This document shows positions 3,785-30,335 of a DNA stretch of 30,335 nt, one piece after another. Made by a program: the position numbers and the translations under genes. This stretch comes from a virus, in IMG/VR virus record IMGVR_UViG_3300028829_001777, positions 1 to 30,335 of that record; one strand, 5' to 3'. The notes beneath the pieces are model-generated. The model did not search any database. It was given only the letters and a program-made list of their open reading frames with translations, and had not been told where the DNA came from. The number at the start of each line of letters is the position of its first letter. The stretch's first letter is position 1.

Positions 3785-5085
3785 ACAAATTTCTCCGTAA
3801 TATTTTCCATTTTGTGATAATTCAAACCTTCTGAAACTCTCACTGGATACTTACCTCTCACTTCGACAATAGATTTTACCATCTTCATAAACTCCATCCC
3901 ATCATCTTTATGTACATCAAATAAAAATGAATCGTAACTGTACAGAATTATCTTACTCTTATAACCACTTAGTTTTGGTAATAATTTTGTAAGCACTTTC
4001 ATATTATTTTCAGTTTCCATCAGCTGAATAAGATAATTGAACATTTTATTCTTATTCATATCAGATAGATTATTTTTGTATATCCTCTTATTATAAATAT
4101 CAGATTCTACGAAATTATTAGATTTATACCTCTTCCATACCTCATCGATATATATTTGAACTTTGGCAAAAAATGGATTTTCTCGCAAAACATTATCAGG
4201 AATATGCCCATATAAATACTGAAATGATAGAGACTTAGCCTCATCATAATTTACTTGATATAACTTAGACATATGTCTGTGAACAGACCCCTTTGGAAAT
4301 TTATAGTCTACTACATCCGCAATTAGCCTTAGGTGATAAGCATCGTAATCCATCTCTATCAGTACACCATCTTCACCATGCCTACTTATAAACTTTTTTC
4401 TACTACCATCTGATTTATTTAGAGCAGCAAAGTTAGTTCCACCGAATCTATTTGATGGACGACCTGTAGCAGTATACAGATTATATTCACTAAAGACCAT
4501 ACCATTTGTGGTTTGTAATCCGTTCTTTTCAATACTATGTAAATTAGGTATAACATCGTTATTGTATGTACCAAAGCAACTTTGATCTTGAGTGAATACA
4601 CATTTTTTTATCTCATCAACGATAAGTCTACTCATTTCTAAATGTTTCATTATAGGTATAATACAATTTATATTAGACTTCCCCCAATAAATTCTATGAA
4701 AATAGTCATGTGAATTTGTTGTTAGTTGATCGAGTGGCATCGGAACATTTTTATCTAAATAATTTTTCATCTGAATGTCTGTGATATCATCCCAATCTAA
4801 AAAGTGCAGTAACTTCTTTTTATCATAAGTAAAGACTGTCTGTTCTGTTCTAGTCATACCTAAATACTTTTTTTCTAAGTTTATAGCATCAGAGTGTCTA
4901 AATGGTAATATGTATTCTTCGGTATTATCATTCACATCTCCAAGCAATCTTATATAAATTAAGCACAGATTTGTTGCTAATGGGTGTTTGTTATCATCAC
5001 ATTGTACAGGAACTACTACAGAAGAATTTATCTGAAACTCTTTCATAAAACTTTCCCACTCTTTATGTGATTCTATTATTTTCAT
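3781..5085 (-). CDS. Short family A DNA polymerase-like protein with altered motifs
   Basis: 434 residues from the chosen start. The C-terminal half aligns by eye with the Klenow palm and fingers. TATGR (205-209) contains the Arg equivalent to Klenow R668. Motif A is DYDAYHLR (246-253) for DYSQIELR. Motif B is KSLSFQYLYG with K284, F288 and Y292 retained, but Klenow R754 is Tyr. N350 and Q354 match N845 and Q849. Motif C is YDS (384-386) instead of HDE. Both metal-binding Asp residues (246, 385) remain, while the Glu steric-gate position is His251. The N-terminal 150 residues lack recognisable 3'-5' exonuclease DxE residues. An ATG at 5107-5109 is also possible, but the ATG at 5083-5085 overlaps the upstream TGA as ATGA and is preferred. 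It could be an accessory or repair polymerase, or a primer or gap-filling enzyme. Confidence 0.85.
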   Translation of the reverse strand: MKIIESHKEWESFMKEFQINSSVVVPVQCDDNKHPLATNLCLIYIRLLGDVNDNTEEYILPFRHSDAINLEKKYLGMTRTEQTVFTYDKKKLLHFLDWDDITDIQMKNYLDKNVPMPLDQLTTNSHDYFHRIYWGKSNINCIIPIMKHLEMSRLIVDEIKKCVFTQDQSCFGTYNNDVIPNLHSIEKNGLQTTNGMVFSEYNLYTATGRPSNRFGGTNFAALNKSDGSRKKFISRHGEDGVLIEMDYDAYHLRLIADVVDYKFPKGSVHRHMSKLYQVNYDEAKSLSFQYLYGHIPDNVLRENPFFAKVQIYIDEVWKRYKSNNFVESDIYNKRIYKNNLSDMNKNKMFNYLIQLMETENNMKVLTKLLPKLSGYKSKIILYSYDSFLFDVHKDDGMEFMKMVKSIVEVRGKYPVRVSEGLNYHKMENITEKFV

Positions 5086-5684
5086 TTTATATGAGGACCT
5101 GCTATCCAAACGACTAACGACCTTCTAATACCACTTGTGACTGGCAATACTCTGTGTCTCAGTAAGGATGGAAACATAACAGCATTACCTTTCTTCAAAT
5201 GTTCAGGTGTATTCAACATACCACCCCTTTCTAATTCAAATATACCACCACTATATTCATTAGCATCTGAAAGTTGTACTGACAGGCTAATTTTTCTATA
5301 GTTCATATTGGGTCCTGTATCGGTATGCCAATCATACTTTGCTGTACCATCTGTCGAGTCATATATTGTATATTGTAGATTCTCATAAAATCCTCTTATA
5401 TCTAACTCCCATCGATTTGTATTTTGAACCGAAGCCCAAATCCACTCATAAATCCATTCTGTTTCAGTTGCTTTCGGTATCCAAGAAATTTTAGAGTTTC
5501 TTGTATCTTTGGTGACACTTCCCTTATCTGTAATAGTAGCATCTTCCGATACTAATCGTTCTCCAATATCAATAATCTTATCACATTGTTCTTCAGAGAA
5601 AAGTGGTTCGAACAAGTAATGATGATTTAGTTCAAAATCAGCATCAACTTTCCATTCTTTAGGAATTTCTTCTACATACTCCAA
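5082..5684 (-). CDS. 2OG-Fe(II) oxygenase, prolyl-4-hydroxylase-like fold
   Basis: 200 residues with a double-stranded beta-helix dioxygenase pattern. The iron triad is H120-T-D122 (YDWHTDTG) and distal H177 (LLRHRVLPV), with 2-oxoglutarate-binding Arg at 187 or 188 (GIRRSL). LSVQLSD and YSGGIFEL are the typical strands between them. The family couples 2-oxoglutarate decarboxylation to hydroxylation of a protein, nucleic acid or small-molecule substrate; the substrate is not shown. There is no in-frame ATG near the beginning. TTG at 5682-5684 is chosen because GAGG lies 7 nt upstream (5692-5695) and the next in-frame Met is residue 127. It overlaps the end of thyX by 13 nt and the polymerase-like gene by ATGA. 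The position between ThyX and a polymerase permits, but does not prove, a nucleotide or DNA modification role. Confidence 0.9.
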   Translation of the reverse strand: MEYVEEIPKEWKVDADFELNHHYLFEPLFSEEQCDKIIDIGERLVSEDATITDKGSVTKDTRNSKISWIPKATETEWIYEWIWASVQNTNRWELDIRGFYENLQYTIYDSTDGTAKYDWHTDTGPNMNYRKISLSVQLSDANEYSGGIFELERGGMLNTPEHLKKGNAVMFPSLLRHRVLPVTSGIRRSLVVWIAGPHIK

Positions 5685-18674: not shown

Positions 18675-21122
18675 TTATTCAGGAAATGCAGCACCAGTCG
18701 GTAATACTGAGAAATCCAATACAATGAACTCTGCAGTTCTTGTAGGTTGGATAAATATCTGTCCAACCAATTGGTTTCTGTCAATTACATCAGGTGTATT
18801 ATTACTTTCGTCCATTACTACTTTGAAAGCACTCAATCCACTATTAGATTGAACTGATTCTAAGAACGGATTCACAATATTTAGGAATCTAGTTCTTGTA
18901 GATGAATCGTTTTGTTCAAATACTAAGAATCTACTTGACGAAGCAATAAACTTCTTCAATCTGATTAATAATCTTCGTACATTGATTCTGTCTAAAGCAG
19001 ATGGTTTAGCTTGTAGTGTCTTTTGTCCAAATACCACAACTCCTTGTCCAGGAAATGTAGCAATAGGATTGACTCTACCATCATACAATCTATCTCTATC
19101 TGTATGAGTTAATTTCTTTTTAGCCATTCTAACACTAGCTAACCCACCACGATTCAATCCAGCAGGAGCAAACCATTCGTGAGCTACACTATCTGTGAAA
19201 GCAATTACGCCAGGTATTACTACCGATGGCGGAACCCATACACCTTCACCAGTATTAGGATCATCTATCTTTACCCAAGGAAAATAAGTAGCAGCATAAT
19301 TAGTGTCTAATGTTTTGACATTACTAATAGCAGCAGCAACTGTATCACCCCAAGCAGCACCATCCATTACATAGAAAGCATCAGCTCTAGCTTCTACTTT
19401 ACTGATAATATGATTAGTTACGTTTGGATGTAAACTATGTACTAATCCAGGTGTTGCTACCATATTGATATCAATCTCATCAGGATTACTAACAGCATTT
19501 ACAGCTTTTTTCCAAGCAACTGAACCACTAGCTGCTGATGTACTACAATCAAATCCCATTACATTAGTAGCAGTAATATCATTACCAGTGTTTAGAACTT
19601 TATTTGGTGCTATACCATCAAATCCATACTGCATCGGAACAGCAAATTTCTGTTGTACAGAAGCGGCAGCAATCGTCAAACTAGCTGCACTGCCTACAAA
19701 TGTAGAACCATATGTAGTCTGTAATGTTGTTAGGTCAGCGCCTGTTCCAAATCCACTCATATTAGATAATAAGAAATTAGCATTATTACCTTTTACAGCC
19801 GCCTTTGGAATCGGTGACAAGTAAGAAACAGCATCATTTCTCTCTTCTTTATTGAAATGTAATGAACTCAATTTGAATCCATATGCTACTCCACCATCAT
19901 AGTTACCTTTGTTTGATGTTGATTGTTGTATCGTATTTATTGAACCAGTAGGTACAGCAGCTGTAGATATAATCGGTTCGATTACAGCAGCAAAACCAAA
20001 TGGCTGTGAAGCCTTTGAAGCCTTTAGATTATCTGGAAGATAGTCACCGACTCTGATTCTATTAGAACGATTAGCGTACTCACCATAAACAGTTACTTCA
20101 CCATCATCACTTACACTCTGAAATTGGTCTCCTATTACCTTAGCAATAAAATTAGGTGATGTAGGATCTAATACTAATTTAGAATATGATTCTAAAGAAT
20201 TTCCTATTGCATCAAATAATTCTAATCCAAATTCAGCATAATTTTCAGCTGTATTATTCACATCCGCCTGAACAACATCTTTTATGACAACATAATAGTT
20301 GTTAGTTGCTGTTCCATCTGCTCTCATATAAATTTTGAACAATTCGTTGGAATTTTGGTCTAAAATAGATGGTGTTCTAGCAGAAGTTGCTCCACTACTA
20401 CCATTTATAGTAGATACATATGTACTAGCATTTACTGTCTCAGTTCCGCTTTGAAAATCCATCTCTGATGAAGATAATACTTCAATACTCATAGATACAG
20501 TAGAGGCTACTGCGCCACCAGACAATGATTGACTAATGTGTCCTCTGAAATACTTGTATGTGTATACTGGAGCAGAAGTGCCATCAATTGTGTTTACATT
20601 AGCATCCGATGGTACTTTATCTCCAAGATAATTAGCACTTGTAGCGTCTGATTCAGCTATGGTCAATGATGTAAGACTAGCACTAGCATTTGAACCAGCA
20701 AATCTAATATCAAATGAATTAGCCCGTGTTGCTGTTGCTGATGTCAACGAAGCAGATACAGAACCACCAGTATTATTTTTAGCTGGTAAGTAACTGGCAA
20801 CTACGTGATTTATTCCTGAGCCACTAGCAACTAAATGTATTGCATTTGCTTTGTATCCTTGTAAATATCCAACTCTGACTACGGTTACTGAACCTGCAGA
20901 CCTTAGATATTCGTTTATTGTGTAAGGCGTATAATAATCTTTGGTATATCCTCCAAAAATTGTTTTAAACTCAGAAAAAGATGATACTTGTGTTGGAACA
21001 AATGAAGGACCTTTCAATGTAGGTCCTATTATAGCTGCTCCAATGTTAGCTACCCCAGCGGGTAGAAACGATAAGTCTTTCTCACGAGTAAATACACCAG
21101 GACTGACAATTCTCTCTGACAT
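18675..21122 (-). CDS. 18: Tail sheath protein gp18
   Basis: 815 residues, longer than T4 gp18 (659). It is the contractile outer sheath that drives the tube into the cell. The N-terminus ERIVSPGVFTREKDLSFL... IGAAIIGPTLKGP with FSEFKTIFGGY, and NEYLRSAGSVTVVRVG, is the standard sheath opening. The C-terminus has FPGQGVVVFGQKTLQAKPSALDRINVRRL, LIRLKKFIASSSRFLVFEQND and VDESNNTPDVIDRNQLVGQIFIQPTRTAEFIVLDF, the conserved sheath end including the strand exchanged between subunits. The extra length is in the Ser/Thr/Ala-rich middle (about 110-330), probably surface-exposed domains. AAGGAG precedes the ATG by 7 nt. Ends just before a strong terminator. Confidence 0.96.
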   Translation of the reverse strand: MSERIVSPGVFTREKDLSFLPAGVANIGAAIIGPTLKGPSFVPTQVSSFSEFKTIFGGYTKDYYTPYTINEYLRSAGSVTVVRVGYLQGYKANAIHLVASGSGINHVVASYLPAKNNTGGSVSASLTSATATRANSFDIRFAGSNASASLTSLTIAESDATSANYLGDKVPSDANVNTIDGTSAPVYTYKYFRGHISQSLSGGAVASTVSMSIEVLSSSEMDFQSGTETVNASTYVSTINGSSGATSARTPSILDQNSNELFKIYMRADGTATNNYYVVIKDVVQADVNNTAENYAEFGLELFDAIGNSLESYSKLVLDPTSPNFIAKVIGDQFQSVSDDGEVTVYGEYANRSNRIRVGDYLPDNLKASKASQPFGFAAVIEPIISTAAVPTGSINTIQQSTSNKGNYDGGVAYGFKLSSLHFNKEERNDAVSYLSPIPKAAVKGNNANFLLSNMSGFGTGADLTTLQTTYGSTFVGSAASLTIAAASVQQKFAVPMQYGFDGIAPNKVLNTGNDITATNVMGFDCSTSAASGSVAWKKAVNAVSNPDEIDINMVATPGLVHSLHPNVTNHIISKVEARADAFYVMDGAAWGDTVAAAISNVKTLDTNYAATYFPWVKIDDPNTGEGVWVPPSVVIPGVIAFTDSVAHEWFAPAGLNRGGLASVRMAKKKLTHTDRDRLYDGRVNPIATFPGQGVVVFGQKTLQAKPSALDRINVRRLLIRLKKFIASSSRFLVFEQNDSSTRTRFLNIVNPFLESVQSNSGLSAFKVVMDESNNTPDVIDRNQLVGQIFIQPTRTAEFIVLDFSVLPTGAAFPE

Positions 21123-21209: not shown

Positions 21210-21506
21210 TTACTTTTCCTCTGGTTTTTCTTCTAATTTAGATGTAAATTCACCAGTCTGTGGGTTCAATGTTCCCTGACCATACTTTTCATTCATATCT
21301 TTCAGCAATGCTCTTTCTTTTTCTTGCGCTTCGATATAATTGGATTCAAGTTTGACTTCAGTTTCATCAAGTCCCTTTATTTGTTGCTCAAGTAACATTC
21401 TCTGAACCTTTAGTTGACCAAAAGTATTAGCAATAGTTTGATATTGTGTTCCTAAGTCCTTAATAGTCTGTAGCTCTTCTTCTGTTACTTTTTTTACTTC
21501 ACTCAT
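21210..21506 (-). CDS. Small coiled-coil protein upstream of sheath
   Basis: 98 residues from the chosen start. Almost entirely helical with heptad character (about 5-85: QTIKDLGTQYQTIANTFGQLKVQRMLLEQQI...), then GTLNPQTGEFTSKLEEKPEEK. No known family recognised. An ATG at 21534-21536 in the same frame would add ten residues (KKNNNKEYI) and overlap the preceding gene. The ATG at 21504-21506 is preferred because AAGGAG lies 7 nt upstream and the extension is low complexity. Could be a tail accessory or assembly protein given its place before sheath and tube. Confidence 0.75.
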   Translation of the reverse strand: MSEVKKVTEEELQTIKDLGTQYQTIANTFGQLKVQRMLLEQQIKGLDETEVKLESNYIEAQEKERALLKDMNEKYGQGTLNPQTGEFTSKLEEKPEEK

Positions 21507-21522
21507 AATATACTCCTTGTTA

Positions 21523-23730
21523 TTATTTTTTTTCATTAAAGAAGAACACTTGATACAATCTAGAATTATCTATGGATTCTCCAAAGTAAGAACCTGCTGT
21601 ATGTAAATGTCTCCCATTCCATAAAATTAATCTGTTATAGACATTAGCAATATCGTCTATCTTTTCAAATGGATGTGTATCCCATTGTGCCTGATTACCT
21701 ATAAATACATCTTCGAGACCTTCTTGTCTCATCTTCTTGCCAGTCTCTTTATGTTTCATCAACCAAGTGCCTGTTCTTGGTGGTGCATCAGGACTTAAAA
21801 ATATTATACCAGCCCAATCTGTAGCATCACAATGTACTACCTGACCAGTTTCTGCTGGTGACCATTGATAGCACCCATGCGTTCCACCATCACCAGCCCA
21901 TTCGCTATCATCTGTTTTTATTCCTAACAATTTTTCAAATATTGGTCTGTAAATATCTCCATGTGGATATGGTTTAGACCTAATACCAACCGAACCCCTT
22001 TTTTTATACTCATCTGACATACTTAGTGCTAACTCTCTAACCTCATCAGGATTTTCTAAAAAATTATCAACTACAACGATAGTTGGTTCATTATCGGTAT
22101 TTACTTTAGGTAGTAAAGTTTTTTTTTCATAGATATCACCACCCCATTTAGAAGTTTCGTTTATTTTTATTATATCTTTCTCTAACGAAATTTCATCATT
22201 TAGACCTGCTTGGTTATCAATCAATTTATCACCTAAAGATTTATTAGCCAATTTATCTTTTATTGGTATAGCATTTTCACATCCATTACACAACGAAAAA
22301 CTTTGATTATTATCAGGAATACTATCTTCAAATGATTGTTCATATAAGTTACCTGTAATATGTTTTAGTCCATAGTCCATACAACAAAGAGACACATCTC
22401 CATTTGGTAATAAAATATTATGATATAAATCTTCGACACATCCACAAGTAAGTTCCCCTTCAACATAATTTTCAGAGTTGTACTCAGAAGCATCCCTAAC
22501 TCTATCCATAACTTTTCTTAGTTCCGGCTTCATTTGAGCTTCGCCCTTCAAATTACCAGCTCTAGACCACATTACTGGTATATGGATATCCTCTTTTTTC
22601 CAAATGCCTAATTTTTCTACTTCTTCATGTACATCTCCCATAGACATTAGGTAAAAACTACTAAATTTAGCCTTTTTTATAGCTTTCAGTACACTTATAT
22701 ACCTTTTTGTTATAGGATGTTTTGCTAAATGTTCTTTATCTGGTAAATGTAATGTAAATCCGCTATTAGGACCGTCATCAAATGGTATATGTTTTATTTT
22801 TTCTACATCATCTAATGTCATACCTATACCAGTAGTAAATGCTGCAATAGGATGTCCCTTTTCATAAGCATAAATCATCATATCAGAGCAATGCTTATTC
22901 ATAAATGGTTCTATAAAGCCTGAAAATATAATTCTCACATCATTAGGAACTTTATCAATAGCTTTTTTGAAATCAGCCATAGTCATAAATCTCATCTCAT
23001 CAGTATATGATTTTTTTAGTATTTCTTGTGGACAAAATACACAATCTACAACACATCCCTTAGTAGGTATTACAGTTGTTATCTCTAATGTTGGGTAATC
23101 AGTTACAGCCCATTTTGGTTTTTTTGGTTCTATATCTACTATCTTAGGTTCTTCTATTTTATTATTTTTTTCAGGCCACCCACAGTTATTTAGGTTGTTT
23201 ACGACAAGTTCGTTATAAAACTCAGACATTTCATAATTTATATGCAGGTCATAAAGGATTTCTTTTGACTCTTCTATCTTCCAACTATGCCAAGCGTTTA
23301 TGGCTTTTTGAAATACAGCTTTATAATGTTCATACTCAAATGGTAGAGATGTTACCCTTTTTGAATTATCTTTATACTCAATTGATATATTAGCATAAGC
23401 ATATGCCTGAAATGGCTCTTCTATTTCAAATTCTCTACATAAAAGAAAATAAGCTTCAGGTCTTTTTGGTTTTAGAGCAACTGCGTGATATAACGAAACT
23501 TTATTATGCGAACTTCTATTTCCTTGTAGAAAAAAACAATTTGCTAAAAGTAAAAGACTTTCATATACAACATCATCATCTTTAGATGTTTCAGCTATTC
23601 TATTTAGGTATGATACTGCTGAAGCATATTGCTGTATATCGAAATAAGCCTTAGCCAGCTCCAACTGAATTTCAATACCAGTAGTATCTATACTGTATTG
23701 CTGTAATAATTTTGTTATCGTATTATTCAT
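21523..23730 (-). CDS. TPR - radical SAM/SPASM - 2OG oxygenase-like fusion protein
   Basis: 735 residues with three parts. Residues about 15-175 are TPR-like helical repeats (LELAKAYFDIQQYASAVSYL; KPKRPEAYFLLCREF), as seen in phage glycosyltransferase-type proteins. Residues about 212-490 are a radical SAM enzyme. CVVDCVFC (C226, C230, C233) binds the SAM [4Fe-4S] cluster. A SPASM-like set follows (C429, C431, LLPNGDVSLCC with C449/C450, C481, C484) for auxiliary clusters, typical of peptide- and protein-modifying members. Residues about 548-735 resemble the DUF6445 / 2OG-Fe(II) oxygenase-like family: VVDNFLENPDEVRELAL, H633-C-D635, distal H708 or H710 and R724 before YQVFFF. Starts by ATGA overlap with the GH130-like gene. 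The substrate is unknown; the nearby collagen-like fibre is a candidate. Confidence 0.9.
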   Translation of the reverse strand: MNNTITKLLQQYSIDTTGIEIQLELAKAYFDIQQYASAVSYLNRIAETSKDDDVVYESLLLLANCFFLQGNRSSHNKVSLYHAVALKPKRPEAYFLLCREFEIEEPFQAYAYANISIEYKDNSKRVTSLPFEYEHYKAVFQKAINAWHSWKIEESKEILYDLHINYEMSEFYNELVVNNLNNCGWPEKNNKIEEPKIVDIEPKKPKWAVTDYPTLEITTVIPTKGCVVDCVFCPQEILKKSYTDEMRFMTMADFKKAIDKVPNDVRIIFSGFIEPFMNKHCSDMMIYAYEKGHPIAAFTTGIGMTLDDVEKIKHIPFDDGPNSGFTLHLPDKEHLAKHPITKRYISVLKAIKKAKFSSFYLMSMGDVHEEVEKLGIWKKEDIHIPVMWSRAGNLKGEAQMKPELRKVMDRVRDASEYNSENYVEGELTCGCVEDLYHNILLPNGDVSLCCMDYGLKHITGNLYEQSFEDSIPDNNQSFSLCNGCENAIPIKDKLANKSLGDKLIDNQAGLNDEISLEKDIIKINETSKWGGDIYEKKTLLPKVNTDNEPTIVVVDNFLENPDEVRELALSMSDEYKKRGSVGIRSKPYPHGDIYRPIFEKLLGIKTDDSEWAGDGGTHGCYQWSPAETGQVVHCDATDWAGIIFLSPDAPPRTGTWLMKHKETGKKMRQEGLEDVFIGNQAQWDTHPFEKIDDIANVYNRLILWNGRHLHTAGSYFGESIDNSRLYQVFFFNEKK

Positions 23731-24743
23731 ACACTATATTCCAAATTCTTATCAAAAAAGTTATCAAGAACCTTTTCATTTATCTGTAGCATGTGAGCTG
23801 AATTATCTTCGAACCCAAATGTTATATAAAAGTCATCTCCTAACTTATCCATACCACAGCAAAATTCAATCTGACCATCCATAAAAGTAAATTGTTTAGA
23901 TACCCTTTGTACTACGAAATCTTTATCCCATTGTACAAGTCTGTGACTATAAATAGCATCTTTGTTTTCAGCACACCTATCTTCAAATCTCCACCAATTA
24001 GTATCATGTACTATAGCAAAAAATCCATCATTATGTTTTATAATTTGTGAAGAGCCTCTCATATTTCCATCAATATCTATCTTTTTCCCTTCATATACCA
24101 ATTCACATTTTCCTGTTTTTGGATTAGCTTTGACTAATTTAGTAGGATTAGCATCCATAACAAAATGATATGGTAAGTCCCTAACAGGCATCCAATTTTT
24201 TTCACAATAAGAGTTTGGATCTGTAGGGTGTTCTATTCTAACTCTACTAATTTCAGTTGGATGTGAAGATATTTTTTTCAACTCTGATAATTCCATTCTT
24301 CCTTGTCCATTATCTGTAGTATCTCTACGGACACCTGTAATATAGACTTTATCATTCCAATTTACTAACCTACCATCTTCTAATCCAGCAAATGTCCATT
24401 TGGATTCAACATCTAATTCCATATTTATTTTATTGAATTTAGTCGAATTACTCCACTTTGCTAAAAAGTTATCTGTAACTAATCTAGCATCATTTTCAGG
24501 ATGTACATATGTCAAAGGACCCCATCTTGAAGAATATCTACCACCTTCTTCCATCCAACCTTTAGCACCAATAGAATGATATAATGTGTAGTTTAGCATT
24601 CTTATATTGATATATAAAAAGTCATCTATATTCAGTATGCTAGGATTGGCAATTCCAGTTCCATTTGTATCTGAACTGTCTATAATCAAAGGATGGTTTA
24701 TGCCCAGCTTTGATATCGATTCAATATTCATAAAAGATTTCAT
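23727..24743 (-). CDS. GH130-like five-bladed beta-propeller protein
   Basis: 338 residues with repeating blade signatures: NPSILNIDDFLYINIRML (33-50), GLEDGRLVNWNDKVYITG (120-137), EKNWMPV (181-187), RGSSQIIKHNDGFFAIVHD (229-247) and DGQIEFCCGM with FYITFGFEDNSA (289-316). The N-PSI, EDGR and R-SS/FCCG positions fit glycosidase/phosphorylase families GH130/GH43-like, which act on mannosides or related sugars. Whether the catalytic acid is intact cannot be judged by eye. It is coupled by ATGA overlap to the TPR-radical SAM fusion, so the two probably work on one substrate, perhaps a glycan on the fibre or host surface. GAGG lies about 11 nt before the ATG. Confidence 0.72.
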   Translation of the reverse strand: MKSFMNIESISKLGINHPLIIDSSDTNGTGIANPSILNIDDFLYINIRMLNYTLYHSIGAKGWMEEGGRYSSRWGPLTYVHPENDARLVTDNFLAKWSNSTKFNKINMELDVESKWTFAGLEDGRLVNWNDKVYITGVRRDTTDNGQGRMELSELKKISSHPTEISRVRIEHPTDPNSYCEKNWMPVRDLPYHFVMDANPTKLVKANPKTGKCELVYEGKKIDIDGNMRGSSQIIKHNDGFFAIVHDTNWWRFEDRCAENKDAIYSHRLVQWDKDFVVQRVSKQFTFMDGQIEFCCGMDKLGDDFYITFGFEDNSAHMLQINEKVLDNFFDKNLEYSV

Positions 24744-24810: not shown

Positions 24811-25056
24811 TTAGTAAGAACCACTAACATCATTTCCTGCCCAAAATACATTACATTCAGGACAAAATGAGCCTGTTATAAAGTCTCCTATCTCTTCATC
24901 ATCGCTATCCATATCGTGAGTTGAAGATATTTTTAGTAATGAACCTGAAGTCGCTCCTTTTGTACTAATGATACTATAATCTTCTGTTCTACATATGTAT
25001 ATTGATTCGGATAATTGCGTTGTTCCATCGCAACTCCCACTATGTATTAGACTCAT
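24811..25056 (-). CDS. Small acidic protein with CPEC motif
   Basis: 81 residues, function unknown. A Ser/Thr/Asp-rich beta-type sequence with a strongly acidic stretch (HDMDSDDEEIGDF) and an FCPEC motif (half of a zinc or iron knuckle; other cysteines are at residues 9 and 22). It follows the 266-residue fibre gene by 4 nt, with AGGA about 8 nt before the ATG. Possibly a minor virion or fibre-associated protein. Confidence 0.7.
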   Translation of the reverse strand: MSLIHSGSCDGTTQLSESIYICRTEDYSIISTKGATSGSLLKISSTHDMDSDDEEIGDFITGSFCPECNVFWAGNDVSGSY

Positions 25057-25060
25057 ATCA

Positions 25061-25861
25061 TTATCCTGTTATGTAAATGCCTAAGAAAAGAGTACCCATA
25101 TTTGATCCGTAGCCATAGCCTTCATAAGTCATGGTATTAGAAGAAAAAGTAATTTCAGGAAACCTTAGATAAACATCTTTGTTAGAACCAGCACCACTTG
25201 ATTCATAATAAAGACCATCTGCACTTACTCCTGTTCCACTTGACGGAGGTGTACCATTACGTTGATTCCATCTTCCTGCCGTAGTTGCATTAGCGATTTG
25301 AATCCATGTAGAGCTGTGATTGTATGCTGTATTAGTGGTTAGGGATGTTGTTTGAATACCATTGACTCCTGATGTAGAAAATGATTTGAATACAAGACCA
25401 CCATTGTAAATTAGTCTTTTTAGCTGAGCATCAGATCTAAAAGATGTTCCTGACTCAAATCTAAAGAAAATATGACCTGTCGCGCCGATGAGTGATTCAC
25501 CTACATAAGCTGCTGATGATAAGTCTATATTCGAAACGGTTACTTGACGAGTACCTTGATCTCCTGAGAACATTTGGGTATTACTACTATTACCATAAGA
25601 GCCTACTGACGGGCCACCATCATGATCATAACCATAAAACTCACTCATTGAGTATGGAGCTACTTGAGCCTGTACACCATTACCACCACCACTACCTTTC
25701 AAATTTATATTTCCATTACTACTGTCATCGTGACTATTACTAGAAAGTCCTCTTAGACTAAAATTGCTCTCACCATCTGTATTATTAGAAGTATAATCAC
25801 TATCATTTTTTTCAGACCAAATACCTAGCATTGATATTGTACCGCTACCAGGAACCGCCAT
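25061..25861 (-). CDS. Tail fibre/adaptor-like structural protein
   Basis: 266 residues. The start GSGTISMLGIWSEKN, with FSLRGLSS and then APYSMSEFYGYDHDG, is a pattern I know from fibre or other virion proteins of aquatic phages (GTISM-I... and 'SMSEFYGY' elements flanking a variable loop). A Gly/Ser-rich beta domain follows from about 95 to the end, with RFPEITFSS and MGTLFLGIYITG strands, probably a receptor-facing or trimeric tip. Its ATG overlaps the stop of the collagen-like fibre gene as TAATG, so it is translated together with it. The likely role is a tail-fibre partner or short fibre, from pattern and position. Confidence 0.75.
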   Translation of the reverse strand: MAVPGSGTISMLGIWSEKNDSDYTSNNTDGESNFSLRGLSSNSHDDSSNGNINLKGSGGGNGVQAQVAPYSMSEFYGYDHDGGPSVGSYGNSSNTQMFSGDQGTRQVTVSNIDLSSAAYVGESLIGATGHIFFRFESGTSFRSDAQLKRLIYNGGLVFKSFSTSGVNGIQTTSLTTNTAYNHSSTWIQIANATTAGRWNQRNGTPPSSGTGVSADGLYYESSGAGSNKDVYLRFPEITFSSNTMTYEGYGYGSNMGTLFLGIYITG

Positions 25862-28800
25862 TATTTCAACTCCTCTAATTCTCGTCTAAGTTCATCGATT
25901 TGTTTTTGTTGTTCTTTTATAGACTCTATTAGTAATGGAACTATCTTATCATATTTGACTGTTAAGTAATCTTCACCAGATTTTGAATTACCATCTTTAT
26001 CTAAATCAAAAGGAGCAATATCAACAACTTCTGGTAATACTTTTTGTACAGATTGTGCACTAACACCTATTTGAATATCATCGTTATCAAATCCAAAACT
26101 TTTTGCTAAATCATTGTTTTTGTAAGTAAATACTTCTATATCATTAATTTTATTTATTGGATTATCTATACCAATTTTAATTTTATCTTTTAGTCTAGTA
26201 TCTGAATAGTAAGCCGTTACATCACCAGTAACTGTAAAGTTACTTGTGGTTGCATCAATTCTAGCGGTAGAATCTCCATCATAAATTGCAATTCGTTGAG
26301 TAGAATTTCCACCACCATTTAAGAAAAGAGTACCTGTATTCTTAGCACTTACAAATGTGTGAAAATCTGTCGTATCATAAAGTAGTACATAATCATTAGT
26401 ATTATGGTCATCCGTAGTTAATGCTAAATATCTACCAGTACTAGCTGCCCAAGGTTCTAATTGCCAATGATGACCTGCTACTGTAGCGGCTGAAAAGTCT
26501 CCTGTTACATCTAAAGGACCATCAAGAATTAAATCAGTACCATCAAATACTAAAGAGGCATCAAATCCAGCCGTAGCTGCCCCAGTTCCAAATACAAGCT
26601 TTGTATTATCGTAAAATTTTAGTTGGTCGGCTGATTGATCCCAAAACGCTTTTCTACCTGAGGTAGCACCAAAGAATGTTACATCTATTCCAGCGTCATT
26701 TACACCGAATTGAACCTCTGCACCTGAAAATCTAGTTTGATCTTCGGCAAATTGAGCCCTTTGACCAATAGCTTTGATTAAAACATTGTTGATTGCATCT
26801 GAGTCTTGAGTGTCACCTATTGTCATTGTTTGACTGTTTGTAAGTATTCCACCATTTTGGGTATTATGACCACCAGTAGCCATCTTTAGTTCAGAATTAC
26901 CTGATGCATTTAATGACAAGACATTACCATCAAAAGTCATATTAGCTTCAGCATTTATTGTAGATGAATTTACAGATGTTATTACTCTGTTATTAGTCTG
27001 ATTGGTATATGAAGTTATTCCAGCATTTGGACCTGTAGGACCAGTAGGACCTGTAGGACCAGTAGGCCCTGTTCCTCCAGTATTACCAGTTGTTCCAGTA
27101 GCACCTTGAGTTCCTTGAATCCCCCTTATTCCTTGAACACCTTGAGAACCAGTACCACCAGTAGGACCTGTACCACCAGTAGGCCCTGTTCCTCCAGTTG
27201 GACCTCCAGCACCAGTAGCACCTTGAGTTCCTTGAGTACCTTTGATTCCTTGTATACCTTGAGTACCTTGAGTTCCACCAGCACCTGTAGGACCACCAGG
27301 ACCAGTAGGACCACCAGGACCAGTAGGACCATCTGGACCAGTAGGACCAGTAGGACCTGCTCCTCCAGTAGAACCAGTTGTTCCAGTAGCACCTTGAGTT
27401 CCTGTAGCACCTTGAGTTCCTGTAGCACCTTGTGAACCAGTAGGCCCTGCTCCTCCAGTAGGACCAGTAGGACCTGTTCCACCAGTTGGACCTGTACCAC
27501 CAGTATTACCAGTCGTACCTTGAGTACCCTTCGTTCCTTGTGTTCCAGTTCCACCAGTAGGACCAGTAGGACCAGTAGGACCTGTTCCACCAGTTGGACC
27601 TGTACCACCAGTAGAACCAGTTGTACCTTGTGTACCTTTTGTACCTTGAGTTCCCTTCACACCTTGTAGGCCTTGAATTCCTTGTATACCTTGACTACCA
27701 GTATTACCAGTTGTACCTTGAGTACCTCTGATACCTTGGACACCTTGAGAACCAGTAGAACCAGTAGAACCAGTAGGACCTGTTCCACCAGTTGGACCTG
27801 TTCCGCCAGTATTTCCAGTAGTACCTTGAGTACCTTTCGTACCTTGAGTACCTTTTATGCCCTGTAAACCTTGAGAACCAGTAGGTCCTGTTCCACCAGT
27901 ATTTCCTGTAGTTCCTTGAGTTCCTTTTATACCTTGTACTCCTTGAGTTCCAGTAGCACCTTGAGTTCCTGTAGCACCTTGTGAACCAGTACTTCCAGTT
28001 GAGCCTGTAGTTCCTTGAGTTCCTTTGATGCCTTGAATTCCTTGAATTCCTTGGCTTCCTGTAGAACCAGTAGGACCAGTTCCACCAGTATTACCAGTCG
28101 TACCTTGCGTACCTTTTGTACCTTGAGTTCCTTTGACTCCTTGGACACCTTGAGTTCCAGTAGCACCTTGAGTTCCTGTAGCACCTTGAGAGCCTGTAGA
28201 ACCAGTTGAGCCAGTTGTACCTTGAGTCCCCTTTATACCTTGTATACCTTGGATACCTTGAGAACCAGTAGAACCAGTAGGACCAGTTCCACCAGTATTT
28301 CCTGTAGTTCCTTGAGTTCCCTTTACACCCTGTATACCTTGTATACCTTGAGAACCAGTAGAACCAGTAGGACCAGTTCCACCAGTATTACCAGTCGTAC
28401 CCTGAGTACCTTTCGTTCCTTGTGTTCCCTTAATTCCTTGAATTCCTTGAATTCCTTGTGAACCAGTTGGACCTGTACCACCAGTATTACCAGTTGTACC
28501 CTGTGTTCCTTTTGTGCCTTGTATCCCTTTTATTCCCTGAACTCCTTGAGTACCAGTAGCACCTTGAGTACCAGTAGCACCTTGAGAACCAGTACTTCCA
28601 GTCGAACCAGTTGTACCTTGTGTACCTTTTATTCCTTGAATACCTTGAATTCCTTGAGAACCAGTACTTCCTGTAGAACCAGTTGTACCTTGAGTTCCTT
28701 TTATACCTTGTACACCTTGAGTACCAGTATCACCTTTATCACCAGTTCTAGCAAAGGTAACTATTAATTCTTCACCATTTGAGAATGGACTGTCAGCTGA

Positions 28801-30335
28801 AGAAGAAACATTGGAAATGTAAACTCTGAAGTAGCCTGTCATTTCTGCAATTGCTGATATCGTAAATAATAAAAATTGTGACGAATCAGTTTTATTAGAT
28901 ATTCTAACATGACCCTTTATAGTAGATGTAGAATCGTCTATCGTTCTTAGGTAAGTTTGTATATCTGTACTATCGACATCAGCATCATCTATATAAATAA
29001 TTGTTGAATTTTTCTGAGTTCCTGAACTTAGTCTTAAGTCACCAGCGCCTGGATCTGAATCAGAGTTTGAGCTATCAAAGTTATATGCGAATGTAGCACC
29101 ACCGAAGTTACCCTCTACACCTTGGATTCCTTGTAAGCCTTGAATTCCTTGAACACCCTGTGAACCAGTAGAACCAGTCGTACCTTGTGTACCTTTTGTT
29201 CCTTGAGTACCTTTGATTCCTTGTAAGCCCTGAATTCCTTGTATTCCTTGAGAACCAGTAGGTCCTGTACCACCAGTATTTCCTGTAGTTCCTTGAGTTC
29301 CTTTTGTGCCCTGTATACCTTTTATTCCTTGAACACCCTGCGTTCCAGTAGCACCTTGACTACCAGTACTTCCAGTTGTACCTTGAGTACCGATTGTACC
29401 TTGTATACCTTTTATTCCTTGTATACCTTGGATTCCTTGTATACCTTGAGAACCAGTAGGTCCTGTACCACCAGTATTACCAGTCGTACCTTGAGTACCG
29501 ATTGTACCTTGTATACCTTTTATGCCCTGAACACCCTGTGAACCAGTACTTCCAGTCGAACCAGTAGTACCCTGCGTACCCTTTACACCTTGTAGGCCTT
29601 GAATTCCTTGTGAACCAGTAGAACCAGTAGAGCCAGTTGTACCTTGAGTTCCCTTTATACCTTGTAGGCCTTGAATTCCCTGCGAACCAGTACTTCCTGT
29701 AGTTCCTTGAGTTCCTTTGATTCCTTGAACTCCTTGAACTCCTTGCGAGCCAGTAGAGCCAGTAGTTCCTTGTGTACCTTTGATACCTTGTAGTCCTTGT
29801 AAGCCTTGAATTCCTTGAGAACCAGTACTTCCAGTTGAACCAGTTGTACCCTGAGTTCCTTTTGTGCCTTGTATCCCTTTTATTCCTTGTAGTCCTTGTA
29901 GTCCTTGTAAGCCTTGTAAGCCTTGAATTCCTTGAGAACCAGTACTTCCAGTTGAACCAGTTGAACCAGTAGAACCAGTCGTACCTTGAGTACCAATACC
30001 TCCTTGTACTCCAGCATTCTGTCCGTTTACTATTACATGACCAAACGAACCGGTTGAGGTTGATGAACCGCTTATTAATCCATTTGTTTTTGTGGATATG
30101 ATATCCTGAGTTGTTAGTATATCCCCACCAGTAAAATGATGTTCTTTTAATGATTCTATTTTAGTGCTACGAAGTCTAAATATTTGACTAGTTGAATTTG
30201 GAGTTCCATACCTAAATGATAAATTACCTGAGTTCCATATATATTGAGGATTATTAGTATTGTGATATAAAGTCGTACCAGATATTCTAACTGTGCCTTC
30301 TACATTAAGTTTATAATCACTTGGAATAGTTCCTA
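25861..30335 (-). CDS. Very long collagen-like tail fibre with S74 chaperone end; start outside window
   Basis: 1490 residues visible, open to the right edge without a stop; an ATG at 28840-28842 is internal. From the N-side: a globular head ([16 protein letters not shown]... [12 protein letters not shown]), about 99 Gly-X-Y triplets, a globular interruption of about 120 residues ([23 protein letters not shown]... [13 protein letters not shown]), about 190 more triplets, a beta-rich shaft with FDGNVLSLN-type segments, then a peptidase S74 domain with SDTRLKDK about 114 residues from the end (Ser codon at 26203-26205) and a coiled-coil tip. S74 domains fold trimeric fibres and cut themselves off before this Ser, using the Ser and Lys. 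The fibre probably binds the host. Confidence 0.93.
27025..28743 (-). repeat. Collagen-like Gly-X-Y block 2
   Basis: About 190 consecutive Gly-X-Y triplets inside the fibre gene, built from 9-bp units grouped in longer repeats that recur almost exactly. X is often Ile, Ser, Thr or Pro and Y mostly Thr, Gln or Lys. Prolines are in X position (GPT), so Y-position proline, the usual prolyl-hydroxylase target, is absent or rare. Confidence 0.9.
29104..29994 (-). repeat. Collagen-like Gly-X-Y block 1
   Basis: About 99 consecutive Gly-X-Y triplets on the N-terminal side of the globular interruption, again with 9-bp periodicity and Thr/Gln/Ser-rich composition and fewer prolines than block 2. The reading frame is continuous with block 2 and with the window edge. 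Confidence 0.88.

Follow-up and report, generated by a model that had tools for sequence, protein, structure and literature searches.

When a phage encodes glycosyltransferases close to its tail fibres, they are commonly taken to modify DNA or LPS. Several described systems resemble parts of the locus analysed here. In pelagimyophages the host recognition cluster forms a variable island that combines tail fibres with glycosyltransferases and radical SAM cassettes; in the accessible part of that report neither domain fusions, nor a GH130-like/TPR core, nor a link to collagen-like proteins are described (PMC7029224). In Clostridioides difficile, SgtA, encoded by a gene adjoining bclA3, adds O-GlcNAc to the Thr of the GPT collagen repeats of BclA3 (PMC7157674). 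There, as here, a sugar-transfer gene lies beside a Thr-rich collagen-like surface protein, but the protein belongs to a bacterial spore, the glycosyltransferase is a different one and neither a radical SAM nor a 2OG enzyme takes part. For single components, GT108 and GH130 enzymes are alike in their five-bladed propeller and both act by inversion (PMC8950772), and BtrN is a Twitch enzyme catalysing the two-electron oxidation of a cyclitol alcohol (PMC9012708).

The window, i.e. the whole stretch of 30,335 nucleotides that was analysed, comes from a marine phage. An initial annotation had pointed to a 735-residue frame without stops, located between the fibre genes and the sheath gene. This frame is confirmed, on the minus strand (735 codons), as is its location, flanked by a collagen-like fibre and by the tail sheath. 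The relevant features are the following.

18675..21122, minus strand: tail sheath protein, a landmark (Pfam Phage_sheath, PHROG 23)
21210..21536, minus strand: gene of about 100 aa before the sheath, far edge of the variable site, kept in sister phages with and without cassette; its true start is probably an internal Met near 21506
21523..23730, minus strand: triple-fusion gene, TPR - radical SAM/Twitch - DUF6445, 735 aa (Pfam)
21526..22104, minus strand: DUF6445 domain, residues 543-735, predicted 2OG-Fe(II) oxygenase fold (PF20043, PHROG 1644, AF2/Foldseek)
22264..23112, minus strand: radical SAM and Twitch module, residues 207-489 (PF04055, alignment of relatives, BtrN match)
22279..22446, minus strand: Twitch cysteines C429-x14-G444-x4-C449...C481-x2-C484, for one predicted auxiliary cluster (invariant in 31 relatives)
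23032..23055, minus strand: CxxxCxxC, SAM-cluster motif C226/C230/C233 (invariant in 31 relatives)
23176..23730, minus strand: TPR module, residues 1-185, conserved cassette core (family profile of relatives)
23727..24743, minus strand: partner gene of predicted GH130/GT108 fold, 338 aa (AF2 and Foldseek), kept in radical SAM loci
24811..25056, minus strand: small protein of 81 aa between the fibre accessory gene and the cassette, in close relatives only
25061..25861, minus strand: protein of 266 aa after the fibre, kept in relatives with or without cassette
25861..30333, minus strand: collagen-like tail fibre, incomplete at the window end, carrying a Peptidase_S74 chaperone at its C-terminus; candidate acceptor

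A search of metagenomic phages for the same fusion and its neighbours, suggested at the outset, retrieved four distinct viral sequences (IMG/VR) that keep the order TPR-radical SAM-DUF6445, and revealed a larger cassette around it. As four distinct sequences share this architecture, a frameshift, chimera or assembly artefact can be ruled out as the origin of the triple fusion. Each of the three segments also aligns end to end with proteins of other phages.

The radical SAM identity holds: Pfam Radical_SAM (PF04055) matches residues 220-365 with E 3.7e-9 (37.4 bits for a cutoff of 29.5), and the cluster cysteines are kept in homologues. The three SAM-cluster and four Twitch cysteines are all invariant (7/7) in an alignment of 31 relatives. 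The initial annotation had called the C-terminal ones SPASM-like. To judge by their spacing they form a Twitch set with one predicted auxiliary cluster and not a full two-cluster SPASM domain; the SPASM profile (PF13186) falls slightly under its cutoff (E 4e-4). When the profile of 31 radical SAM sequences was compared with solved structures the best match was BtrN (butirosin synthesis, PDB 4M7T; E 6.6e-7), followed, each at E about 0.003, by a tetraether lipid synthase and DesII; the three are radical SAM enzymes. BtrN has the same CxxxCxxC and four-cysteine Twitch with one auxiliary cluster, but it is a stand-alone enzyme acting on a small cyclitol whereas the phage module is fused to TPR and DUF6445. 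The similarity lies mainly in the Twitch part and is weak outside it, so that it leaves the substrate unfixed. Weak profile similarity to AlbA-like peptide maturases appears in three of the 31 members. A RiPP maturase seems less likely, since no conserved small precursor was noticed in the loci of the wider family and the cysteines are of Twitch rather than SPASM type.

Stand-alone versions of the radical SAM module exist. One lies among head genes of a Methanomicrobiales virus (L004:7989-8726) and another in a 735-kb phage (L012:2992-3699); GH130-like and TPR modules were not found beside them in the stretches examined. A stand-alone homologue with 28-30% identity is recurrent in rhizobia (L172-L214, mostly Mesorhizobium/Sinorhizobium), several times on symbiosis plasmids, and once (L172) adjoins, by eye, an ACC deaminase-like gene. 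Two further bacterial/archaeal homologues (bacterial L215, and L174) are placed, also by eye, inside apparent polysaccharide or glycosyltransferase clusters.

The DUF6445-like domain with HxD, distal His and Arg, likewise proposed initially, is borne out. DUF6445 (PF20043) is above its cutoff (E 6.3e-7, 30 bits for a cutoff of 24) and PHROG 1644, whose name "minor coat protein" is an annotation only, covers residues 546-734 (E 1.7e-26). The putative 2OG residues are H633-x-D635, H710 and R724: in 29 relatives the Asp, the distal His and the Arg are invariant and H633 is kept in at least 90%. The AF2 model of the domain (pLDDT 88, pTM 0.85) retrieved in Foldseek PHD2 (E 2e-6) and the Pseudomonas putida P4H, both with probability 1.00, and also the BesD/HalD halogenases. 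DUF6445 is thus predicted to be a double-stranded beta-helix, as had been anticipated, and one of prolyl-hydroxylase type. It has in common with PHD2 and P. putida P4H this fold and the HxD...H...R residues, but in sequence it matches none of the solved members, its profile having retrieved nothing useful from PDB. Our literature search found no paper on DUF6445. The window encodes a second, separate 2OG-Fe(II) oxygenase at 5082-5684 (PF13640, PHROG 61), flanked by ThyX-like and polymerase-like genes; in one relative (L247, 1414-1971) a DUF6445-type protein replaces it.

The TPR-like repeats noticed initially are a more nuanced case. In the 735-aa protein TPR_19 (E 3.5e-4) and TPR_14 stay under their Pfam cutoffs, but the module is conserved and the corresponding part of relatives exceeds the cutoff, e.g. 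with 35 bits for TPR_17. It also matches the TPR part of phrog_13126, which is named beta-1,4-glycosyltransferase (E 2.7e-5).

The initial annotation had not connected the fusion with the gene directly upstream, which overlaps it by ATGA (plus-strand TCAT, 23727-23730). This partner gene is nearly always central to the sets found in relatives. By sequence it is outside GH130, the Pfam profile (PF04041) giving E 0.07 and 12.5 bits for a cutoff of 26, and its own profile has no sequence match in PDB. Its AF2 model (pLDDT 88) has GH130 and GT108 enzymes as top Foldseek matches, which predicts a five-bladed propeller: beta-1,2-mannobiose phosphorylase (5B0P) comes with E 1e-9 and the Leishmania mannosyltransferase MPT-2 (6Q4X) with E 8e-8. 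The likeness to these enzymes resides in the fold (TM about 0.55); the partner differs from them in being phage-borne, outside GH130 by the Pfam cutoff and only 10-15% identical. E122, D123 and R125 do not vary among 60 relatives, and we take E122-D123-x-R125 to resemble the GH130 motif that holds the catalytic Asp. Fold similarity to GH130/GT108 gives neither the donor nor the linkage.

Scans of IMG/VR retrieved a radical SAM relative on 234 contigs and the partner gene on at least 575; among 50,697 records, only two annotated phages have the partner gene. Where 2.5 kb or more of upstream sequence was available, radical SAM loci had both the GH130-like and the TPR module in 56/56 cases and DUF6445 in 29; for 69/80 partner-gene loci the distance to a TPR module is no more than 1.2 kb. 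These counts take in some overlapping or near-identical loci. The modules are fused in various combinations. Counted as distinct sequences, there are 21 TPR-rSAM, 20 GH130-rSAM, 6 TPR-DUF6445, 4 TPR-rSAM-DUF6445, 1 GH130-DUF6445 and 1 GH130-TPR fusions, and FkbM, Methyltransf_24, GT2, GT25, GT17, GT7C and WavE domains occur in the same polypeptides as cassette modules. The triple fusion of the window is one permutation of a large phage cassette, whose core is the GH130/GT108-fold gene and the TPR module; radical SAM, DUF6445, FkbM methyltransferases and glycosyltransferases are added to it as fusions or neighbours. DUF6445 is missing from many cassettes, some of them beside collagen-like fibres. 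Three proteins of 987-999 aa (L062, L064 and L066) end in DUF6445; in L064 FkbM and GT17 domains precede it, a direct fusion to glycosyltransferases.

The domain fusions link both the radical SAM module and DUF6445 with the assembly of glycans, and the FkbM, glycosyltransferase and carbamoyltransferase partners around the GH130/GT108-fold gene point to sugar chemistry. We therefore regard glycan chemistry as well supported for the cassette. All components can be assigned to familiar folds or superfamilies, and glycosylation by phages is itself not new. The cassette with its GH130-like/TPR core is apparently undescribed before: neither this core, nor its Twitch radical SAM and DUF6445 fusions, nor the collagen link were found in the open-licence literature, where our search also returned no description of phage radical SAM/FkbM/TPR fusions.

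The cassette site lies between the fibre, with its 266-aa and 81-aa genes, and the gene of about 100 aa before the sheath, and its content varies between sister phages. Two of them (L304/L305, sheath 73% identical) carry the partner gene and TPR-DUF6445, and lack only the radical SAM part. Two others (L386/L389), whose fibre C-terminus is 95-100% identical, encode TPR-FkbM-WavE and DUF6445 beside the partner gene and two 2OG enzymes. In L383 (fibre 85% identical) the partner gene is absent and GT9, FkbM and carbamoyltransferase genes are present. Thus sugar-modifying sets are swapped while the fibre remains almost unchanged. The GT9-FkbM-carbamoyltransferase fusions that occupy the site in L383 (10240-15522) suggest another sugar-decoration set. 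Downstream of the GH130-like and TPR-FkbM-WavE genes, L386 (6148-7694) and L389 (6110-7659) encode proteins that look, by eye, like a sugar nucleotidyltransferase and a phosphodiesterase (no Pfam match at 0.001). No cassette part and no collagen-like repeat occur in the stretch examined of L307, L308, L315 and L327.

The fibre of the window matches Collagen (E 2.6e-109) and S74 (E 7e-9) in Pfam. Its collagen-like part (27001-30000) has a G+C of 0.42-0.49, against about 0.33 elsewhere, probably because of glycine codons. To ask how general this neighbourhood is we scored as collagen-like any run of at least 12 Gly-X-Y triplets. Such runs occur in 46/99 non-redundant cassette loci, in 0/44 gp32 loci and in 2/56 sheath loci, one of these two with a cassette. 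A further control set, made of loci found with the C-terminal part of the window's own fibre, was chosen to exclude mere nearness to tail genes as the cause. Only 7/53 of these tail-fibre loci have a run (Fisher p 3e-5, cassette against tail-fibre set). The association is still enriched relative to tail-fibre loci, but not exclusive. About half of the cassette loci show no collagen-like gene in the stored flank, some flanks being short, and 8 of 11 collagen-bearing tail-fibre loci have no cassette in the flank examined; the link is therefore a bias and no rule. Cassette and nearest run share a strand in 56/59 loci and are separated by a median of 1.1 kb. In composition, Thr takes 36% of the X positions, Gln 51% and Thr 33% of the Y positions, and Pro is not among the ten commonest Y-position residues of the linked fibres.

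From this we lean, if only slightly, towards reading the 735-aa protein as a glycan-tailoring enzyme of a modular fibre-glycosylation cassette built on the GH130/GT108-fold enzyme and the TPR module. The partner enzyme would transfer a sugar, of mannose type by analogy of fold, and in relatives additional glycosyltransferases would lengthen the glycan. The TPR module would dock the partner, the acceptor or both. The substrate of the Twitch radical SAM domain would be a sugar: the enzyme would abstract H from a sugar carbon and oxidise the hydroxyl, as BtrN does on its cyclitol, the second electron passing to the auxiliary cluster. DUF6445 might use O2 and 2-oxoglutarate to hydroxylate the glycan itself or, ahead of glycosylation, the fibre backbone. 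The likeliest acceptor would be the collagen-like tail fibre next to the cassette: its Gly-X-Thr/Gln repeats are reminiscent of the collagen repeats that carry glycans on Thr in bacterial BclA proteins.

The main rival, which we hold to be rather unlikely, is that the cassette modifies the host surface (LPS O-chain or capsule) in infection and blocks superinfection, the fusion tailoring a host glycan. GT, WavE, GT25 and GT9 domains are indeed typical of LPS synthesis, Zaragoza-Solas et al. proposed this role for the glycosyltransferases of the pelagimyophage cluster (PMC7029224), and the bacterial homologue L215 belongs to an apparent polysaccharide gene cluster. The genes of the window nevertheless sit inside a tail operon, joined by the ATGA overlap between fibre and sheath, and cassette loci have collagen-like fibres nearby more often than tail-fibre loci at large. 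No membrane transporter or polymerase was noticed in an unsystematic look around the phage genes.

The initial annotation had envisaged TPRs presenting a fibre or other protein to two successive oxidative enzymes. Such direct action of the radical SAM and 2OG domains on fibre side chains, by RiPP-like radical chemistry and prolyl or other hydroxylation, is in our opinion improbable. The idea of TPRs presenting a protein to both enzymes received no specific support: the radical SAM and DUF6445 modules also occur apart, sister phages lack the radical SAM part at the same site, and in relatives FkbM, glycosyltransferases and a carbamoyltransferase join or replace the oxidative modules. The DUF6445 model is nearest to the prolyl hydroxylases PHD2 and P. 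putida P4H, a collagen-like fibre adjoins the fusion gene, and the Bacillus anthracis P4H hydroxylates collagen-type peptides (PMC8968730); but Pro, the usual P4H site at Y, is rare there in the linked repeats, and many cassettes, including ones beside collagen-like fibres, do without DUF6445. The weak AlbA-type maturase similarity has to be set against the Twitch type of the domain, with a single predicted auxiliary cluster, and against BtrN being its best match among solved structures. The partners are sugar enzymes, no dedicated precursor peptide gene was noticed, and the 81-aa neighbour is confined to close relatives of the window and missing from the wider cassette loci. The fibre stays plausible as the final target; its direct oxidation as a protein is what the neighbouring domains do not favour.

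A role in auxiliary metabolism with no bearing on virion or surface, such as AhbD-like haem synthesis or small-molecule metabolism, is very improbable: a Baltic Sea virome study reports 261 "ahbD" genes (PMC9301287) and NCBIfam AhbD and NirJ1 match weakly (E 1e-5 to 1e-3), but 16-23 bits against cutoffs of 500-650 lead us to reject AhbD identity, AhbD has two auxiliary clusters (PMC10452713) against one predicted here, no haem genes are nearby and the radical SAM module strictly co-occurs with the GH130-like and TPR modules.

With glycan tailoring, the reading that we prefer, DUF6445 and PHROG 1644 would acquire a function. The cassette might account for some of the "ahbD" and prolyl hydroxylase genes that are counted as auxiliary metabolism in viromes, and the Baltic "ahbD" genes may partly be this radical SAM family with its weak AhbD match. 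The kit is present in hundreds of viral contigs but only two annotated phages, and two isolates carry relatives of the cassette, namely the Synechococcus phages DSL-LC02, with TPR-FkbM-rSAM and DUF6445, and S-SCSM2R, with TPR-FkbM-DUF6445. More tentatively, and short of thinking it probable, we propose that phages widely carry a combinatorial kit building unusual oxidised, methylated glycans on collagen-like fibres, a phage counterpart of BclA-type glycoproteins. Shuffling of modules (radical SAM, 2OG, FkbM, carbamoyl- or glycosyl-transferase) on the TPR/GH130-like core would then let the fibre's glycan vary with the same ease as fibre tips do. If such a radical SAM/2OG/GH130-like kit does belong to collagen-like fibres, the tailoring of virion glycans would be a further ability of phages.
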